64,000 nt of DNA, taken from the NCBI RefSeq assembly GCF_004310335.1, contig NZ_SIRS01000002.1:372001-436000 (forward strand). Direction: 5' to 3'. The notes under the pieces are model-generated. The model had not been told where the DNA came from. It ran no database searches and saw nothing but the letters and a program-made list of their open reading frames with translations. The DNA is from Hyunsoonleella pacifica (GTDB taxonomy: Bacteria; Bacteroidota; Bacteroidia; Flavobacteriales; Flavobacteriaceae). Made by a program: the position numbers and the translations under genes. Shown here in pieces: positions 22,229 to 57,826 of this stretch (position 1 is its first letter; each line of letters begins with the position of its first letter).

Positions 22229-22282
22229 ATGACTTTTACTCAAACACATCATCATTTTTGCATTTGCTCTCAAGCGAAGTAA
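22229..22282 (+). CDS. hisL: His operon leader peptide
   Basis: A 17-residue ORF, MTFTQTHHHFCICSQAK, with three consecutive CAT codons at 22247-22255. It lies between the promoter and a terminator 31 bases after its stop, ahead of the complete his operon. That is the classical setting for ribosome-mediated attenuation. With low charged tRNA-His the ribosome should stall on the CAT codons and leave 22268-22276 free for antitermination. Confidence 0.85.
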   Translation: MTFTQTHHHFCICSQAK

Positions 22283-22326
22283 AAATGTATTGAGTAAAAT
22301 CAACATATATTTAAACCCGTTTGAGA
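22268..22326 (+). promoter_or_regulatory. His attenuator: antiterminator pairing
   Basis: TCTCAAGCG (22268-22276, the end of the leader ORF) can pair with CGTTTGAGA (22318-22326), nine pairs with one G-U. This occupies the left arm of the terminator. A second possible pairing, TTTTACTCAA (22234-22243) with TTGAGTAAAA (22290-22299), is a perfect ten-base match that would enclose the first strand and disfavour antitermination. Ribosome position decides which forms. Confidence 0.75.
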
Positions 22327-22345
22327 CTGTTCAAGCGGGTTTTTT
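22313..22345 (+). terminator. His attenuator terminator
   Basis: Stem AAACCCGTTTGA (22313-22324) with TCAAGCGGGTTT (22331-22342), 12 pairs with one G-U wobble and a six-base loop, followed by six T. It lies 46 bases upstream of hisG, with no other gene between, so its only evident role is conditional termination of the his operon. Confidence 0.85.
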
Positions 22346-22390: not shown

Positions 22391-23248
22391 ATGAGTAAAT
22401 TAAGAATTGCAGTACAGAAATCTGGCAGATTGAACGAAGATTCAATGCGTTTATTAAAAGATATAGGTATCTCTATTGATAATGGAAAAGACCAATTAAA
22501 AGCTTCGGCTAAAGGTTTTCCAGTGGAAGTTTTCTACCTGAGAAACGGAGATATTCCTCAGTACTTAAAAGATGGTGTTGTAGATGTGGCTATTATTGGC
22601 GAAAACGTACTAATCGAAAAAGGTGATGGTATCGATTTTGTAGAACGTTTAGGCTTTTCTAAATGCAAAGTATCTATAGCTGTTCCCAAAGATTCTAAGG
22701 CAAATTCATTAAAGGATCTAAACGGCAAACGTATTGCAACATCCTATCCAGAAACCGTTAAAAAGTTTTTAAAAGCACAAAATATAGAAGCACAATTGCA
22801 TAAAATTAACGGTTCTGTAGAGATTGCACCTAATATTGGTTTAGCAGAAGGTATTTGCGATATTGTATCAAGTGGAAGTACCTTATTTAAAAACGGTCTA
22901 AAAGAAATAGAAGTATTACTAACCTCTGAAGCTGTTTTAGCTGTATCTCCAAAGATGGATAGTGAGCGACAGGCAATTTTAGAAACCATACAGTTTAGAA
23001 TTCAGTCGGTTTTAAAAGGCAGACAATCAAAATATGTATTGCTAAATGCTCCTAATGATAAACTAGATGCGATTATTAAAGTATTACCAGGTATGAAAAG
23101 CCCAACGGTATTACCACTTGCTGAAGAAGGTTGGAGCTCTGTACATTCTGTAATTCCAAAGCACCAGTTTTGGGAAGTTATTGACGAATTAAAGGCTAAT
23201 GGCGCACAAGGGATACTAGTTTGTCCAATTGAAAAAATGGTACTTTAA
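22391..23248 (+). CDS. hisG: ATP phosphoribosyltransferase, long form
   Basis: First, committed step of histidine synthesis: condenses ATP and PRPP. At 285 residues it is the long form with a C-terminal regulatory (ACT-like) domain, so it should be feedback-inhibited by histidine without HisZ. The PRPP-binding segment IVSSGSTLFKNGLKEI is visible, and the regulatory domain contains LPGMKSPTVLPL. It is the first structural gene after the attenuator. Confidence 0.97.
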   Translation: MSKLRIAVQKSGRLNEDSMRLLKDIGISIDNGKDQLKASAKGFPVEVFYLRNGDIPQYLKDGVVDVAIIGENVLIEKGDGIDFVERLGFSKCKVSIAVPKDSKANSLKDLNGKRIATSYPETVKKFLKAQNIEAQLHKINGSVEIAPNIGLAEGICDIVSSGSTLFKNGLKEIEVLLTSEAVLAVSPKMDSERQAILETIQFRIQSVLKGRQSKYVLLNAPNDKLDAIIKVLPGMKSPTVLPLAEEGWSSVHSVIPKHQFWEVIDELKANGAQGILVCPIEKMVL

Positions 23249-52753: not shown

Positions 52754-54043
52754 TTACAGTAGAAAATCCTTTAAATCTTGATAATTTGAAATTTGAGTAG
52801 CTACTTTTGGTTTTCCTATAACCGCTTTTATTTGTTTAGGCAAAACTTGTTCTTCTTTAATAGTATCTTCAACAACATCTAAAAACTTAGTTGGGTGTGC
52901 TGTTTCTAGAAATATGCAATGCGCATTTGGGTGCTCTTTTAAGTAAGATTTGCAACCTAAATACCCAACAGCTCCATGCGGATCAGCAACATAGTTGTAA
53001 TTGTTATATATCTCTAGCATAGCTTCTTTAGTTTCTTCATCAGTAAAACTGTAAGAAGATAAATTATGCTTTAAAGTTTCGAACTGATTTTTATAAATCT
53101 CTTGAATTCGTATAAAATTGCTAGGAGCACCAACATCCATAGCATTGCTTATGGTTTGTATAGATGGTTTTGGCTCGTATAATTGAGATATTAAATAGCG
53201 TGTTACAACATTATTAACGTTATTTGATGCTATAAAATGCTTAATAGGAAGTCCTAATTGTTGCGCCATCATACCTGCACAAATATTTCCAAAATTACCA
53301 CTAGGCACTGAAAATACAATATCATCATATTGTTTGTGCAACTGTTTATAGGCAAATATAAAATAGAATAGTTGTGGTAACCAACGTGCTACATTTATAG
53401 AGTTTGCAGAAGTTAATTGCATTTTACTGGTTAATTCTTCATCGAGAAATGCAGTTTTTACCATGGCTTGACAATCGTCAAATGTGCCATTTACTTCTAA
53501 TGCTTTTATATTTTGGCCAAGTGTTGTTAATTGTTTTTCTTGTATATCGCTAACTTTTCCACTAGGATACAAAATCACAACATTAACACCTTTAACTCCA
53601 AGGAAACCATTTGCTACAGCACCACCAGTATCTCCTGAAGTAGCTACTAAAACTGTTACTTCTTCATTATTATTTTGGTTGAAATGTCCCAAACAACGCG
53701 CCATAAAGCGTGCTCCTACATCTTTAAATGCCATAGTTGGTCCATGAAATAATTCTAATGTAGATATATTATCATTTAGCTTTACAACAGGAAAATCAAA
53801 GGATAATGTTTCTTCAACAATAGTTTTTAAAATATCCTCTGGAATTTCAGGAGTTACAAATTGTTTTATAGCTTCAAACGCTATTTCAGTATAAGATAAA
53901 TTATCTAAATTATCCCAAAACGACTGGGAAAGGGGCGTGATATTTTCAGGGAAGTATAAGCCTTTATCTGGAGCTAACCCTTTAATAACAGCATTTTTAA
54001 ATGTTGAATCTGCTGCTTGTTTGTTTAATGAATAATAATTCAT
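52754..54043 (-). CDS. thrC: Threonine synthase
   Basis: PLP-dependent last step of threonine synthesis from phosphohomoserine. 429 residues. N-terminal MNYYSLNKQAADSTFKNAV, PLP Lys in HGPTMAFKDVGARF, VATSGDTGGAVANGF and SGNFGNICAGMMA. Third gene of thrA-B-C, separated from thrB by 101 bases. Confidence 0.97.
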   Translation of the reverse strand: MNYYSLNKQAADSTFKNAVIKGLAPDKGLYFPENITPLSQSFWDNLDNLSYTEIAFEAIKQFVTPEIPEDILKTIVEETLSFDFPVVKLNDNISTLELFHGPTMAFKDVGARFMARCLGHFNQNNNEEVTVLVATSGDTGGAVANGFLGVKGVNVVILYPSGKVSDIQEKQLTTLGQNIKALEVNGTFDDCQAMVKTAFLDEELTSKMQLTSANSINVARWLPQLFYFIFAYKQLHKQYDDIVFSVPSGNFGNICAGMMAQQLGLPIKHFIASNNVNNVVTRYLISQLYEPKPSIQTISNAMDVGAPSNFIRIQEIYKNQFETLKHNLSSYSFTDEETKEAMLEIYNNYNYVADPHGAVGYLGCKSYLKEHPNAHCIFLETAHPTKFLDVVEDTIKEEQVLPKQIKAVIGKPKVATQISNYQDLKDFLL

Positions 54044-54144: not shown

Positions 54145-55068
54145 TTAATTAATAATTTTAACTCCTTTAGTATTAATTTTTGATACGTGTATATCAAAAT
54201 TTATACTTGATGATGCGTAAACCTCTTGCATTGCGTCTTTAACTTTATTTGCATTTTCCAGACCTTTACTTAATGTGAAAATTGAAGGTCCGGAACCAGA
54301 GATTCCAGCACCTAAGGCACCTGCATTTAATGATGCTTGTTTTACTTCAGTAAATAGAGGAATCAATTGACTTCTATAAGGCTCAACCACTACATCGGTT
54401 AAGGCACTTTTTATCAAATTATAATCACTAGTATGTAGTGCATGCACTAGGCTACCTAAATTTGCCCACTGTATTATAGCATTATTAAGAGGAACTTCTT
54501 TAGGAAGAATAGCTCTAGATTCAGATGTTTTTATTTCTATTTGTGGATGAATTATTGTTGCATATAAATCATCAGGAGAGGGAATTTCTAATATTTGTAA
54601 AGGCGATATACTTTTTACTAAAGTAAATCCACCGAAAAGAGCAGGAGCAAGGTTGTCAGCATGCTCGCACTTACTGGCTAATGCTTCTCCTTTTATAGCG
54701 AATTCCGTAAGTTGAGTCTTGTCAAATGGTCGACCTATCAATTCATTCATCCCAAAAACACTACCAACTGCACTTGCGGCACTACTGCCAATACCACTTC
54801 CTGGCTTTATATTTTTATAGATTTCAATTTCAAAACCAAAATCAACATCCAAATTCTCGTACATTGCTAATGCGGATACACCTGCAACATTCAATTCTGC
54901 TTCTTTAGGTAAATCAAAGCCTTCAATTGTTGATATAAAAATGCCTTTTTTGTCGATTTTTCTAATTACCATCTCATCTCCTACGTTATCCAAACAGAAG
55001 CCCATAACGTCAAATCCGCAAGATACATTGGCCACTGTGGCAGGAGAAAATAGTCTTATTTCATTCAT
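54145..55068 (-). CDS. thrB: Homoserine kinase
   Basis: GHMP kinase phosphorylating homoserine. The start giving MNEIRLFSPATVANVSCGFD matches the family N-terminus and gives 307 residues, the usual length. The ATP loop PGSGIGSSAASAVGS and late GAGISGSGPSIF are present. An upstream in-frame ATG at 55134, five bases from the thrA stop, would add a 22-residue extension (MELHKESDISCSSAAEHYLI...) not expected in the family. Confidence 0.95.
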   Translation of the reverse strand: MNEIRLFSPATVANVSCGFDVMGFCLDNVGDEMVIRKIDKKGIFISTIEGFDLPKEAELNVAGVSALAMYENLDVDFGFEIEIYKNIKPGSGIGSSAASAVGSVFGMNELIGRPFDKTQLTEFAIKGEALASKCEHADNLAPALFGGFTLVKSISPLQILEIPSPDDLYATIIHPQIEIKTSESRAILPKEVPLNNAIIQWANLGSLVHALHTSDYNLIKSALTDVVVEPYRSQLIPLFTEVKQASLNAGALGAGISGSGPSIFTLSKGLENANKVKDAMQEVYASSSINFDIHVSKINTKGVKIIN

Positions 55069-55139
55069 CTTTTTTATTAAATAATGTTCGGCTGCACTAC
55101 TACAGGAAATATCACTTTCTTTGTGTAATTCCATTTGTT

Positions 55140-57584
55140 TTAATTATTACCTAATCTTATAATATCAGCAAATAATCCTGACGCTGTAACATCTGCACCA
55201 GCACCAGCACCTTTAATAATCATAGGTTGTTGCGAATAACGTTCTGTGTAGAACATTACAATATTATCACTTCCTTCTAAGTTGTAAAATGGGTGTCCAA
55301 CAGGAACTTCTTGTAAGCTTACACTAGCTTTACCATTATCGAATTTCGCAACGTATTTTAGCTGACAATTATTTGCTTTAGCAGAAGCGTATAAACTTTG
55401 GTAATGTGCTTCATCAGCAATTAACGTTTTATAAAACTCCTCTACAGAACCACTTTCCAATCCTGATGGTGATAAGAAAGAAGTATTCTTAATATCTTCT
55501 AGGTTTAGTGTTACGCCACTTTCTCTGGCTAGAATTAAAATCTTACGAGCTACATCAACACCACTTAAATCTATTCTTGGATCAGGTTCAGTATAACCTT
55601 CAGCACCAGCTTGTTTTACTACATCATAAAATTTTGTAGTATCGCTAAAGTTATTAAATACAAAGTTTAAACTTCCAGAAAGTACAGCTTGTATTGAGGT
55701 AACTTTATCACCTGAAGCCACTAAGTTATTTAATGTATCTATAATTGGTAAACCTGCACCAACATTGGTTTCAAACAAAAATGGTGCATTATATTTTAGA
55801 GATAGCTCTTTTAATTCTTGATATTTTTCAAAATCGCTTGAGCAAGCAATTTTATTACAAGCTACAACTGCAATACTTTCTTTCAGGTATTTTTTGTAGA
55901 GATTTGCTACATCTGCATTGGCAGTGACATCTACAAAAATACTATTACGTAAATTCAATGCTTTTGCATTTTGGAAAAATCCTTCTAAAGAAGCAGTTTC
56001 CCCATTACTTAAGTCATCTTTCCAAGTTTTAAGATTTAAACCAGAAGCATCAAATATCATCTTTCTAGAATTTGATAATCCTACAACACGAAGATTGATT
56101 TTAAGGTTTTCTTTAAGATATTTTTTCTGCTGTTTTATTTGTTCTACTAAGCGTTCTCCAACATTACCAACCCCAGTAATAAATACATTTAATTGTTTTG
56201 TTATACTTTCAAAAAAGGCTTCATGTAACGTATTTAATGCTTTTTTTACGTCAGTTTCTTCTATAACAATTGAAATGTTTTTTTCAGAAGCACCTTGAGC
56301 GATAGCCCTAATATTAATATTGTTTTTTCCTAAAGATGAAAACATTTTACCACTAATGCCTTGGTGGTTCTTCATATTATCACCCACTAAAGCCAGGATT
56401 GATAAGTTAGTTTCAACTATAATAGGATCAATTTTATGAAGTGCAATTTCGTTTTCAAATGTTATATCTATGGCAGTTTTAGCAATTTCTACATCTTTTT
56501 CTTCTATACCTATACAAATAGAATGTTCTGAAGAAGACTGAGTGATTAAAATAACATTGATTTTCTCGTTAGAAAGTGTTTCAAATAAACGTTTAGAAAA
56601 TCCAGGAATACCTACCATGCCACTTCCTTGAAGGGTTAACAAAGCGATGTTAGAAATATTACTAATACCTTTAACAGGCTTGCTTGAAATCTCAGGTCTA
56701 TTGGAAATTATAGTACCAACGGCCTCAGGCTCCATAGTATTTTTAATATGAATAGGTATATCTAAATCTAATACAGGTTGTACGGTAGGAGGGTAGAGTA
56801 CTTTTGCTCCAAAATGTGACAACTCCATAGCTTCTTGATATGAAATACTCTGTATAGGTTGTGCTTGTTTTACTAATTTAGGATTAGTTGTAAACATACC
56901 GCTTACATCTGTCCAAATTTCTAGTTGTTCTACATGTAATGCTGCAGCAATAATAGCAGCAGTAAAATCTGAACCACCACGCCCTAATGTAGTTTGTTCT
57001 CCAAATGTAGAGTTGGCTATGAATCCGGGTAAAATAGTAATTGATTCTTTAGCTGAATCAAAATAGTCTTTTATATTATTGTTGGTAATTTTATAATCAA
57101 CCTCAGCTTTAGTAAAGTTAGAGTTTGTAATTACCAATTCTTGAGAATTCTTTCTATTTGCTGAAATATTTCTATTCTTCATGGTTTCAGCTATAATAAA
57201 AGAGGATAACAACTCTCCAAAGCTTACCAATTTATCAGAAGTTTTAGGAGACACTTCATTAATCAAAAATATACCTTCTAATAAACTATATAATTCGCTT
57301 AATTTTTTCTCAGCGTATGCTAAAATAGAAGTATTATTATCAGTATTTAATTCTTTAATAATTGAGTAATGTATAGTTTCAATGGTTTTAAATGTGTCTT
57401 TAAAACTATCGTCCTTACTTTGTGCTTGTCGTCCTGCTAATAACAGTTTATCAGTTATACCACCAACAGCAGAAACCACACATACTACTTTACTATCTTG
57501 TGCATAAGATTGTAATATACTTATGACTTTATTTATATTTTTTGAAGAACCTACAGAAGTTCCTCCGAATTTTAAAACTTTCAT
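55140..57584 (-). CDS. thrA: Bifunctional aspartate kinase / homoserine dehydrogenase
   Basis: First and third steps of the aspartate pathway to threonine. 814 residues. The aspartokinase starts at MKVLKFGGTSVGSS; two ACT-like regulatory segments lie at about 310-450 (VGDNMKNHQGISGKMFSSLG is in the second). The homoserine dehydrogenase begins at FITGVGNVGERLVEQI, with VACNKIACSS and the substrate loop GYTEPDPRIDLSG. Enzyme feedback by threonine is typical of this fusion, and the leader upstream suggests transcriptional control too. Confidence 0.97.
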   Translation of the reverse strand: MKVLKFGGTSVGSSKNINKVISILQSYAQDSKVVCVVSAVGGITDKLLLAGRQAQSKDDSFKDTFKTIETIHYSIIKELNTDNNTSILAYAEKKLSELYSLLEGIFLINEVSPKTSDKLVSFGELLSSFIIAETMKNRNISANRKNSQELVITNSNFTKAEVDYKITNNNIKDYFDSAKESITILPGFIANSTFGEQTTLGRGGSDFTAAIIAAALHVEQLEIWTDVSGMFTTNPKLVKQAQPIQSISYQEAMELSHFGAKVLYPPTVQPVLDLDIPIHIKNTMEPEAVGTIISNRPEISSKPVKGISNISNIALLTLQGSGMVGIPGFSKRLFETLSNEKINVILITQSSSEHSICIGIEEKDVEIAKTAIDITFENEIALHKIDPIIVETNLSILALVGDNMKNHQGISGKMFSSLGKNNINIRAIAQGASEKNISIVIEETDVKKALNTLHEAFFESITKQLNVFITGVGNVGERLVEQIKQQKKYLKENLKINLRVVGLSNSRKMIFDASGLNLKTWKDDLSNGETASLEGFFQNAKALNLRNSIFVDVTANADVANLYKKYLKESIAVVACNKIACSSDFEKYQELKELSLKYNAPFLFETNVGAGLPIIDTLNNLVASGDKVTSIQAVLSGSLNFVFNNFSDTTKFYDVVKQAGAEGYTEPDPRIDLSGVDVARKILILARESGVTLNLEDIKNTSFLSPSGLESGSVEEFYKTLIADEAHYQSLYASAKANNCQLKYVAKFDNGKASVSLQEVPVGHPFYNLEGSDNIVMFYTERYSQQPMIIKGAGAGADVTASGLFADIIRLGNN

Positions 57585-57618: not shown

Positions 57619-57644
57619 AAAAAAATGTAATTGTAAAAATTACA
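57619..57644 (-). terminator. Possible thr attenuator terminator
   Basis: On the minus strand TGTAATT / AATTACA with a five-base loop and seven T. The stem is AT-rich, so intrinsic strength is modest. It lies between the leader peptide and thrA. Confidence 0.5.
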
Positions 57645-57667
57645 CGTAAGCCTAGAATAATATATAA

Positions 57668-57775
57668 CTAATAACCCCAAAGGGTTGTTGTATTTGTAGT
57701 TGTAGCTAAAATAGTAGTTGTGTTTGAAGAAAATGTAAACACAGTTATAAATTTATTTTGGCTTAAATGATTCAT
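57668..57775 (-). CDS. thrL: Thr operon leader peptide
   Basis: 35 residues, MNHLSQNKFITVFTFSSN then TTTILATTTNTTTLWGY: 11 Thr and 2 Ile, with three Thr triplets. Located between the thr promoter and thrA with no other gene. This composition is hard to explain except as a Thr (and Ile) sensing leader. An ATG six codons earlier (57793) is in frame but lies at or before the predicted transcript start. The last Thr codon forms part of a hairpin AACCC/GGGTT (57673-57686). Confidence 0.85.
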   Translation of the reverse strand: MNHLSQNKFITVFTFSSNTTTILATTTNTTTLWGY

Positions 57776-57795
57776 TTTCGTTATATAAAACATTC

Positions 57796-57826
57796 CAAAA
57801 GTATTACTTTTAGCCTAATAAAAAAA
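57796..57826 (-). promoter_or_regulatory. Promoter of the thr leader and operon
   Basis: On the minus strand TACTTTTG at 57803-57796 is an exact TAnnTTTG; 19 bases upstream lies a T run (TTTT, 57826-57823) in place of TTTG. Transcription would begin near 57788, about 12 bases before the leader ATG. Confidence 0.6.

Follow-up and report, generated by a model that had tools for sequence, protein, structure and literature searches.

A Thr/Ile-rich leader peptide and a conserved GC hairpin upstream of thrABC in Hyunsoonleella pacifica and other Flavobacteriaceae

Introduction

The closest described counterpart of the element treated here is the threonine attenuator of enteric bacteria (thrL; Rfam family RF00506, Thr_leader), with which it shares a Thr/Ile-rich leader peptide upstream of a bifunctional thrA and thrBC. 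Translation of a leader also decides Rho-dependent termination in Escherichia coli tnaC, and in pyrBI of the same species it directly blocks a hairpin that overlaps the ORF. The accessible part of a study on E. coli topAI/toiL likewise describes Rho-dependent termination that is decided by leader translation (PMC12121999). For the four amino-acid leaders in Rfam, a gamma-proteobacterial origin has been suggested in the available portion of PMC3766115. For Flavobacterium psychrophilum, PMC9723704 reports strong clues, in general terms, that operons for amino-acid biosynthesis are preceded by leader-peptide attenuators; the main text, as far as it is accessible, mentions neither threonine nor thrA, and the supplement may list this very leader. 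In Bacteroides thetaiotaomicron, long 5' UTRs contain sORFs that recall leader peptides (PMC7366714), and threonine is not mentioned in the part of that paper available. Our literature search, whose coverage of subscription papers was thin, found no publication that deals with thr leaders of Bacteroidota.

Here we report a Thr/Ile-rich leader upstream of thrABC in Hyunsoonleella pacifica, found in a stretch of 64,000 nucleotides (the window), and its distribution among relatives. The kind of device is known, and its form in Flavobacteriaceae is new and widespread.

Materials and methods

For the first set of loci, thrA was searched in 60 relatives, of which 58 gave a match, and the best 30 loci were taken. 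The second set was picked by ThrA similarity alone and consisted of the best 80 named loci of 285, some species being shared with the first set. A covariance model was built from 25 sequences of the 57 nt around hairpin 1, including 12 nt of the leader. Deduplication left 81 thrA upstream regions, 77 of them with the hairpin pattern (27 from the thrA search, 50 via the covariance model); 77 of 81 is no unbiased rate, because 50 of the 77 were found with the model. The reading frame in all 77 leaders was set by the ACC codon at the hairpin base.

When thrA was searched across the class, 49 of 197 genomes passed the strict cut-off, a few of them only at paralogue level; a search in family f53 of the same class (Sphingobacteriaceae-like, the family name being inferred) matched 52 of 61 genomes. 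Tests for Thr-rich ORFs covered 76 upstream regions from the class-wide search (L101-L129, L147-L162), relatives' genomes (L163-L166) and f53 (L167-L193). A quick tree of 77 ThrA proteins was computed, with a midpoint root for drawing only.

Results

The features of the locus, and those of the his leader used for comparison, are listed in Table 1.

Table 1. Features of the thr and his leader regions in the window
Feature	Position	Strand	Remarks
Leader ORF, 35 aa, 11 Thr and 2 Ile, stop TAG	57775-57668	minus	MNHLSQNKFITVFTFSSNTTTILATTTNTTTLWGY
-7 promoter element, Bacteroidota type TAnnTTTG	57796-57803	minus	TACTTTTG; located in sequence
Hairpin 1, overlapping the last leader codons, ACC (Thr) at base	57673-57686	minus	AACCC-TTTG-GGGTT; located in sequence
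Spaced motif 3' of hairpin 1	57655-57666	minus	TATATATTATTC; located in sequence
Hairpin 2	57626-57644	minus	TGTAATT-TTTAC-AATTACA; -3.8 kcal/mol with closing G-T pair
Seven-T run after hairpin 2, weak terminator candidate in H. pacifica	57619-57625	minus	located in sequence
thrA, bifunctional aspartate kinase/homoserine dehydrogenase I	55140-57584	minus	NCBIfam NF006959, 1033 bits, cut-off 726
thrB, homoserine kinase	54145-55134	minus	TIGR00191, 247 bits, cut-off 168
thrC, threonine synthase	52754-54043	minus	TIGR00260, 289 bits, cut-off 167
his attenuator, textbook layout	22229-22345	plus	leader MTFTQTHHHFCICSQAK; hisG at 22391
his terminator	22316-22345	plus	CCCGTTTGAG..TTCAAGCGGGTTTTTT; strong, U run

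The genes follow each other in the order thrA, thrB, thrC on the minus strand, with the ATG of thrA at 57584 and an intergenic region of 342 nt upstream of it. An initial annotation of the window had placed a 35-residue ORF with 11 Thr and 2 Ile between a promoter and thrA, and our coordinates, promoter element and NF006959 match agree with this. A second in-frame ATG lies upstream of the leader start at 57793; it would give 41 aa and would probably coincide with or adjoin the transcription start. The Bacteroidota promoter consensus is TAnnTTTG, and this pattern precedes the leader in 71 of the 77 Flavobacteriaceae leaders; it also occurs between hairpin 1 and thrA in 16 of the 77, by chance or otherwise.

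When the 342-nt intergenic region was shuffled 3000 times with its dinucleotides preserved, no ATG-ORF (15-60 aa) with at least 8 Thr arose; the best real ORF has 12 Thr when counted from the longer start (57793). Among the 307 ATG-ORFs of 20-60 aa in the whole 64-kb window, five reach 20% Thr, and the leader ORF (12 Thr in 41 residues from the longer start) is the Thr-richest. Thr and Ile make up 40.3% of the 20 codons upstream of the ACC codon in the ACC frame of the 77 leaders, the other two frames reaching 8.1% and 5.1%; stops within these codons occur in 0 of 77 sequences versus 55 and 40; four of the 20 scored codons (12 nt) fall inside the covariance model that found 50 of the 77 leaders, which are related sequences and not independent. 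All 77 leaders have an in-frame ACC at the base of the hairpin. Thr or Ile occupies the two codons preceding it (-2 and -1) in 91% of the leaders; the share is 38% at codon -3 and 66-69% at codons -6 to -4. The stop follows 2-9 codons after ACC (exactly 2, 4 or 5 in 72 of 77) and so falls in the loop of hairpin 1, at its end or one codon beyond. Judged by these comparisons, the leader frame and its Thr/Ile composition are under selection. The locus has the short ORF, rich in codons for the product and upstream of a biosynthetic operon, that is expected of a ribosome-mediated transcription attenuator.

The initial annotation held that absence or frame-breaking of the ORF in close relatives would speak against a leader. 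The relatives kept it: a GC hairpin ACCC..GGG stands 80-159 nt upstream of thrA in 27 of the best 30 loci of the first set (exceptions L018, L021 and L024), and in the second set the hairpin with ACC at its base was found in 78 of 80 loci, an open frame with at least 6 Thr/Ile in 21 codons in 76, TATATA in 73 and the promoter in 76. Together with the chance test and the frame bias, this backs the claim of a Thr/Ile leader peptide ahead of thrA. By reading, thrA of L018 has its promoter directly ahead and no leader; L021 and L024 also lack a leader, and their upstream sequence reads as the end of an ilvA-like biosynthetic gene. These three and L090, with a variant hairpin, are the remaining four of the 81 upstream regions.

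The covariance model matched 73 of 149 family genomes at 79 places; it misses some true cases (e.g. L023 of G032), and thrA was looked for in the genomes with a match. Of these places, 68 are ahead of thrA, 10 are elsewhere (weak, E 0.055-0.39) and one was not fetched. An association with other genes was rejected, as the 10 matches read as coding or terminator sequence and look like chance. Among 146 genomes of the order, 19 matched, 17 of which were Flavobacteriaceae; the two matches outside the family (L142, L146) had no thrA in the stretch examined and were set aside. As far as these matches tell, the leader element goes with thrA.

The leader might be conserved for a role other than Thr/Ile sensing, for example as a small protein with an incidental composition, and an N-terminal likeness within the genus (M-x-H-L-S-Q-N), which goes beyond Thr/Ile, would fit such a role. 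We regard this as very improbable, however, since Thr and Ile crowd the six codons before the hairpin (0.66-0.91 at five of the six positions), the remaining peptide varies across the family, and 68 of the 78 examined model matches stand ahead of thrA. Sensing of Thr/Ile through ribosome stalling is, in our assessment, highly probable.

Hairpin 1, at the end of the ORF, is the best-conserved part of the region and was absent from the initial annotation. In 25 aligned sequences, two C-G pairs are invariant and 23 sequences have C-G at a third; four sequences show changes on both sides of the outer pair, from A-U to U-A or U-G, and the letters and length of the loop vary. Slid versions of the arms pair far less. 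In the shuffle control, 53 of 500 shuffles scored as high, and this control alone is no proof of pairing because the arms vary so little; the hairpin, as a prediction from these alignments, rests on invariant arms and not on covariation. Downstream of it, TATATA (at most one mismatch) begins 5-14 nt past the last G in 62 of the 77 leaders, compared with a mean of 16.2 and a maximum of 26 when the same rule was applied to letter-shuffled stretches (200 rounds); a best-offset rule gives a count of 58, and the commonest offset is exactly 8. TTC follows at offset 17 in 36 of the 77 leaders and CG at 19 or 20 in 37.

Hairpin 2 was seen in the genus of the window and its neighbours. Its alignment comprises 31 of 34 subclade sequences (L006, L008 and L015, in another register, were excluded) and contains 11 compensatory cells, a value that none of the 500 shuffles attained (shuffles: 1.7); by two coarser covariation measures the result was weaker (36 and 45 of 500). 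The AT-rich terminator of the initial annotation corresponds to this hairpin of -3.8 kcal/mol with its seven T, and is present in the window as an intrinsic terminator candidate. As a general terminator it was rejected, since the U run is not conserved across the 77 leaders, of which 13 show five or more T among the 8 nt that follow the best hairpin of -2 kcal/mol or lower. The terminator script called a strong terminator in 2 and an at least weak one in 18 of the 77 Flavobacteriaceae thr leaders, and the stretch between hairpin 1 and thrA is barely more structured than shuffles (mean z -0.45, 77 leaders). By the script, a canonical terminator is nearly absent from Flavobacteriaceae thr leaders.

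The initial annotation had seen no obvious antiterminator; we found none in the window, and permutation tests revealed no antiterminator pairing conserved at a fixed place among the 77 Flavobacteriaceae leaders, nor a conserved partner for the freed 3' arm of hairpin 1. An antiterminator that excludes a terminator, as in ribosome-mediated transcription attenuators, was thus not found. Three candidate pairings were rejected. The GGGG 3' arm pairs with downstream sequence worse than in between-species permutations (P 0.98). Pairing of the 5' part of the leader with the downstream motif gave P about 0.1 over the set and is striking in a few sequences (AACGGAC with GTCCGTT in L026 and L056; AAGCC with GGCTT in part of the genus). 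The last leader codons gave P 0.005 against the downstream stretch over all 77 leaders, which splits into P 0.83 inside the subclade and 0.005 in the 44 sequences that do not belong to it, where the positions are scattered; when 40 pairs of scan windows were tried, the peak (z 2.7) lay elsewhere.

These data bear on the main rival for H. pacifica, a classical switch in which hairpin 1 would be the 1:2 pause hairpin and hairpin 2 with its U run a weak AU-rich 3:4 terminator, the antiterminator having been missed. The compensatory changes in the 31 sequences and the seven T in the window would fit such a switch, as would the P value over all 77 leaders, the classical his leader of the same genome, the classical thr leaders of f53, and a similar hairpin followed by a terminator with a U run, by reading, in the Hymenobacter-like L106 (f62, name guessed). 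We nevertheless consider it rather unlikely: hairpin 2 mostly has only -2.4 to -5.6 kcal/mol in the subclade, T-rich ends and strict terminators are as rare as given above, the GGGG arm finds no partner downstream, and the P value stems from scattered positions outside the subclade.

Control of translation or mRNA stability, with leader translation altering access to the thrA start or protecting the mRNA and no early termination, would agree with the lack of a conserved terminator in the family, and has a precedent in E. coli, where, according to the accessible part of the report, a uORF governs translation first and Rho termination after (PMC12121999). It appears improbable, however, as there is hardly more structure between the hairpin and thrA than in shuffles, and as the one pairing considered, that of the motif TTCCGTCC with the thrA codons GGAGGA, was rejected because the Gly codons vary, even in species with the full motif. 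Translational coupling, suggested in the initial annotation, is unlikely in its strict form because the leader stop and the start of thrA lie 83 nt apart in the window, and roughly 60-110 nt apart in most relatives.

A gene for Rho is present (genome G000; TIGR00767, 642.9 bits, cut-off 509.45). The 60 nt before thrA contain 706 C versus 291 G over the 77 leaders; the two controls gave 344 versus 298 (43 intergenic starts in the window) and 315 versus 286 (30 f53 loci). With 6 C and 2 G in its own 60 nt, the window has too few of either for calling a rut site. The C-rich, G-poor stretch and the Rho gene are compatible with Rho and are no proof of its action.

The initial annotation had left it between an ancient and a convergent regulation. 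Thr-rich ORFs (P at most 0.01, 100 shuffles each) were found in 41 of the 76 upstream regions, in 9 of the 22 families sampled, one of them (L111) looking like chance; within Bacteroidia, where Thr/Ile leader sensing looks old, the first of the two options gains from this. In the ThrA tree, whose type labels are rough patterns that miss some members, the central branch (support 97) separates the ACCC..GGG type, which shares its side with some regions that lack the hairpin, from the GGAGGAAG and ACGGGG types. In family f30, the letters of the hairpin are exchanged (ACGGGG, stop, CCCGT) in 4 of 5 loci, by reading, with a Thr codon at its start and the stop in its loop. Family f53 is mostly of the GGAGGAAG type, and its genus g316 (L167-L170) has an ACCC-type leader and a ThrA that is 57% identical to that of the window and falls on the ACCC side; leader and thrA of g316 were likely transferred jointly.

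Several thrA leaders combine Met and Thr codons: L151 (f49), L152 (f30), L153 and L155 (f46), and L162 (f69), with 3, 2, 3, 5 and 1 Met beyond the start, respectively (example MAGYCLYIILTGMGHMPFATSVTGMTPRG). The ORF of L151 is not significant for Thr alone (P 0.17). These leaders look as if Met, which also derives from homoserine, were sensed too.

Discussion

Transcription in the Flavobacteriaceae thr leader does not seem to be stopped in the textbook way, as the initial annotation had anticipated for the window, a strong terminator being found in 2 of 77 leaders and no antiterminator being conserved. Our preferred reading, with a probability of about one half, is that a translated Thr/Ile leader controls thrABC by ribosome stalling, and that a single hairpin leads to a pause and factor-dependent termination. 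To the placement of codons, stop, hairpin and motif, which can be read directly, it would add translation, stalling, pausing, the direction of control and the role of Rho. A shortage of charged Thr- or Ile-tRNA would stall the ribosome on the codons just upstream of hairpin 1; the stalled ribosome would cover the 5' arm, whose first codon is itself a Thr codon (ACC), so that the hairpin could not form and RNA polymerase would read on into thrA. With sufficient Thr and Ile, the ribosome would get to the stop codon in or just after hairpin 1 and leave, and the hairpin would form while a polymerase about 20 nt further downstream is held at TATATA..TTC/CG. Termination would then occur there or within the next 60 nt through a factor, most likely Rho, or alternatively, in H. 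pacifica, at the weak AU terminator.

Given the size of its footprint, a ribosome on the last Thr/Ile codons reaches over the 5' arm of the hairpin. Formation of hairpin 1 alone would therefore report whether translation has finished, which is why a single-hairpin switch, combined with a hold of the polymerase and factor-dependent release, is our favoured model. A ribosome waiting at the stop would also cover hairpin 1, and the model therefore needs fast release or a long pause. The selection on hairpin 2 in the genus and its neighbours is not needed by this model.

The element may, as we tentatively suggest from its sequence features, represent a new type of attenuator: a single GC hairpin that begins with a codon for the sensed amino acid and has the stop in its loop or at its 3' edge, a spaced TATATA-TTC/CG signal that would hold the polymerase, no pair of terminator and antiterminator, and a direct block by the stalled ribosome. 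This type would be confined to one side of the ThrA tree and would move with its gene between families.

Terminators of the kind CCTTCC..GGAAGGTTTTTTT were seen by reading about 230-280 nt before ilvD in L208, L209, L212, L216 and L218; they perhaps stem from ilv leaders.

The systems of E. coli with which the proposed mechanism can be compared, tnaC, pyrBI and topAI/toiL, respond to tryptophan, UTP or antibiotics and not to a shortage of charged Thr- or Ile-tRNA, and the comparison is one of mechanism. The enteric Thr_leader differs from the Flavobacteriaceae leader, which has no canonical terminator and no antiterminator. RF00506 gave no match in the window stretch (E up to 10) nor in L001 and L012 (E up to 1), and thus none above the gathering score for the window leader; the Rfam search of the window stretch returned only a microRNA match (E 4.8). 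Full-length matches of 31.7-40.7 bits, below the gathering score of 55, were obtained in 6 of 7 tested f53 leaders (L119, L127, L174, L176, L187 and L192), and the Rfam cut-off hence leaves out what appears to be a genuine thr attenuator beyond the gamma-proteobacteria.

The f53 leaders share with the window the Thr/Ile leader upstream of an orthologous thrA, but differ in having GGAGGAAG close to the leader stop, which is able to pair with CTTCCTCC, part of a strong terminator. The script called a strong terminator in 26 of 30 (the call in L170, inside the leader, being false), and complementarity of at least 7 bp to the terminator arm was present in 21 of 30 by a simple search with no permutation control.

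The his attenuator of the window genome shares with the thr leader the leader peptide with cognate codons, a hairpin and a ACATATAT stretch ahead of the biosynthetic gene (here hisG), but differs in its strong intrinsic terminator with a U run. Its antiterminator, CTCAAGCG against CGTTTGAG, was identified by eye. The same script found a strong terminator in all 13 hisG loci (the window genome and 12 relatives). The ACATATAT stretch (22303-22310), just upstream of the his terminator, resembles by reading the TATATA after thr hairpin 1 (57655-57666), and the two leaders possibly share a polymerase pause signal.

Many Flavobacteriaceae and several further families of Bacteroidia are now seen to have a thr leader. 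Flavobacteriaceae keep it without the textbook terminator, whereas the his attenuator of the window genome and its relatives has kept the textbook form. The two leaders therefore offer a clean natural comparison for studying the requirements for a leader peptide to stop RNA polymerase, and the role of the conserved TATATA-TTC/CG signal.
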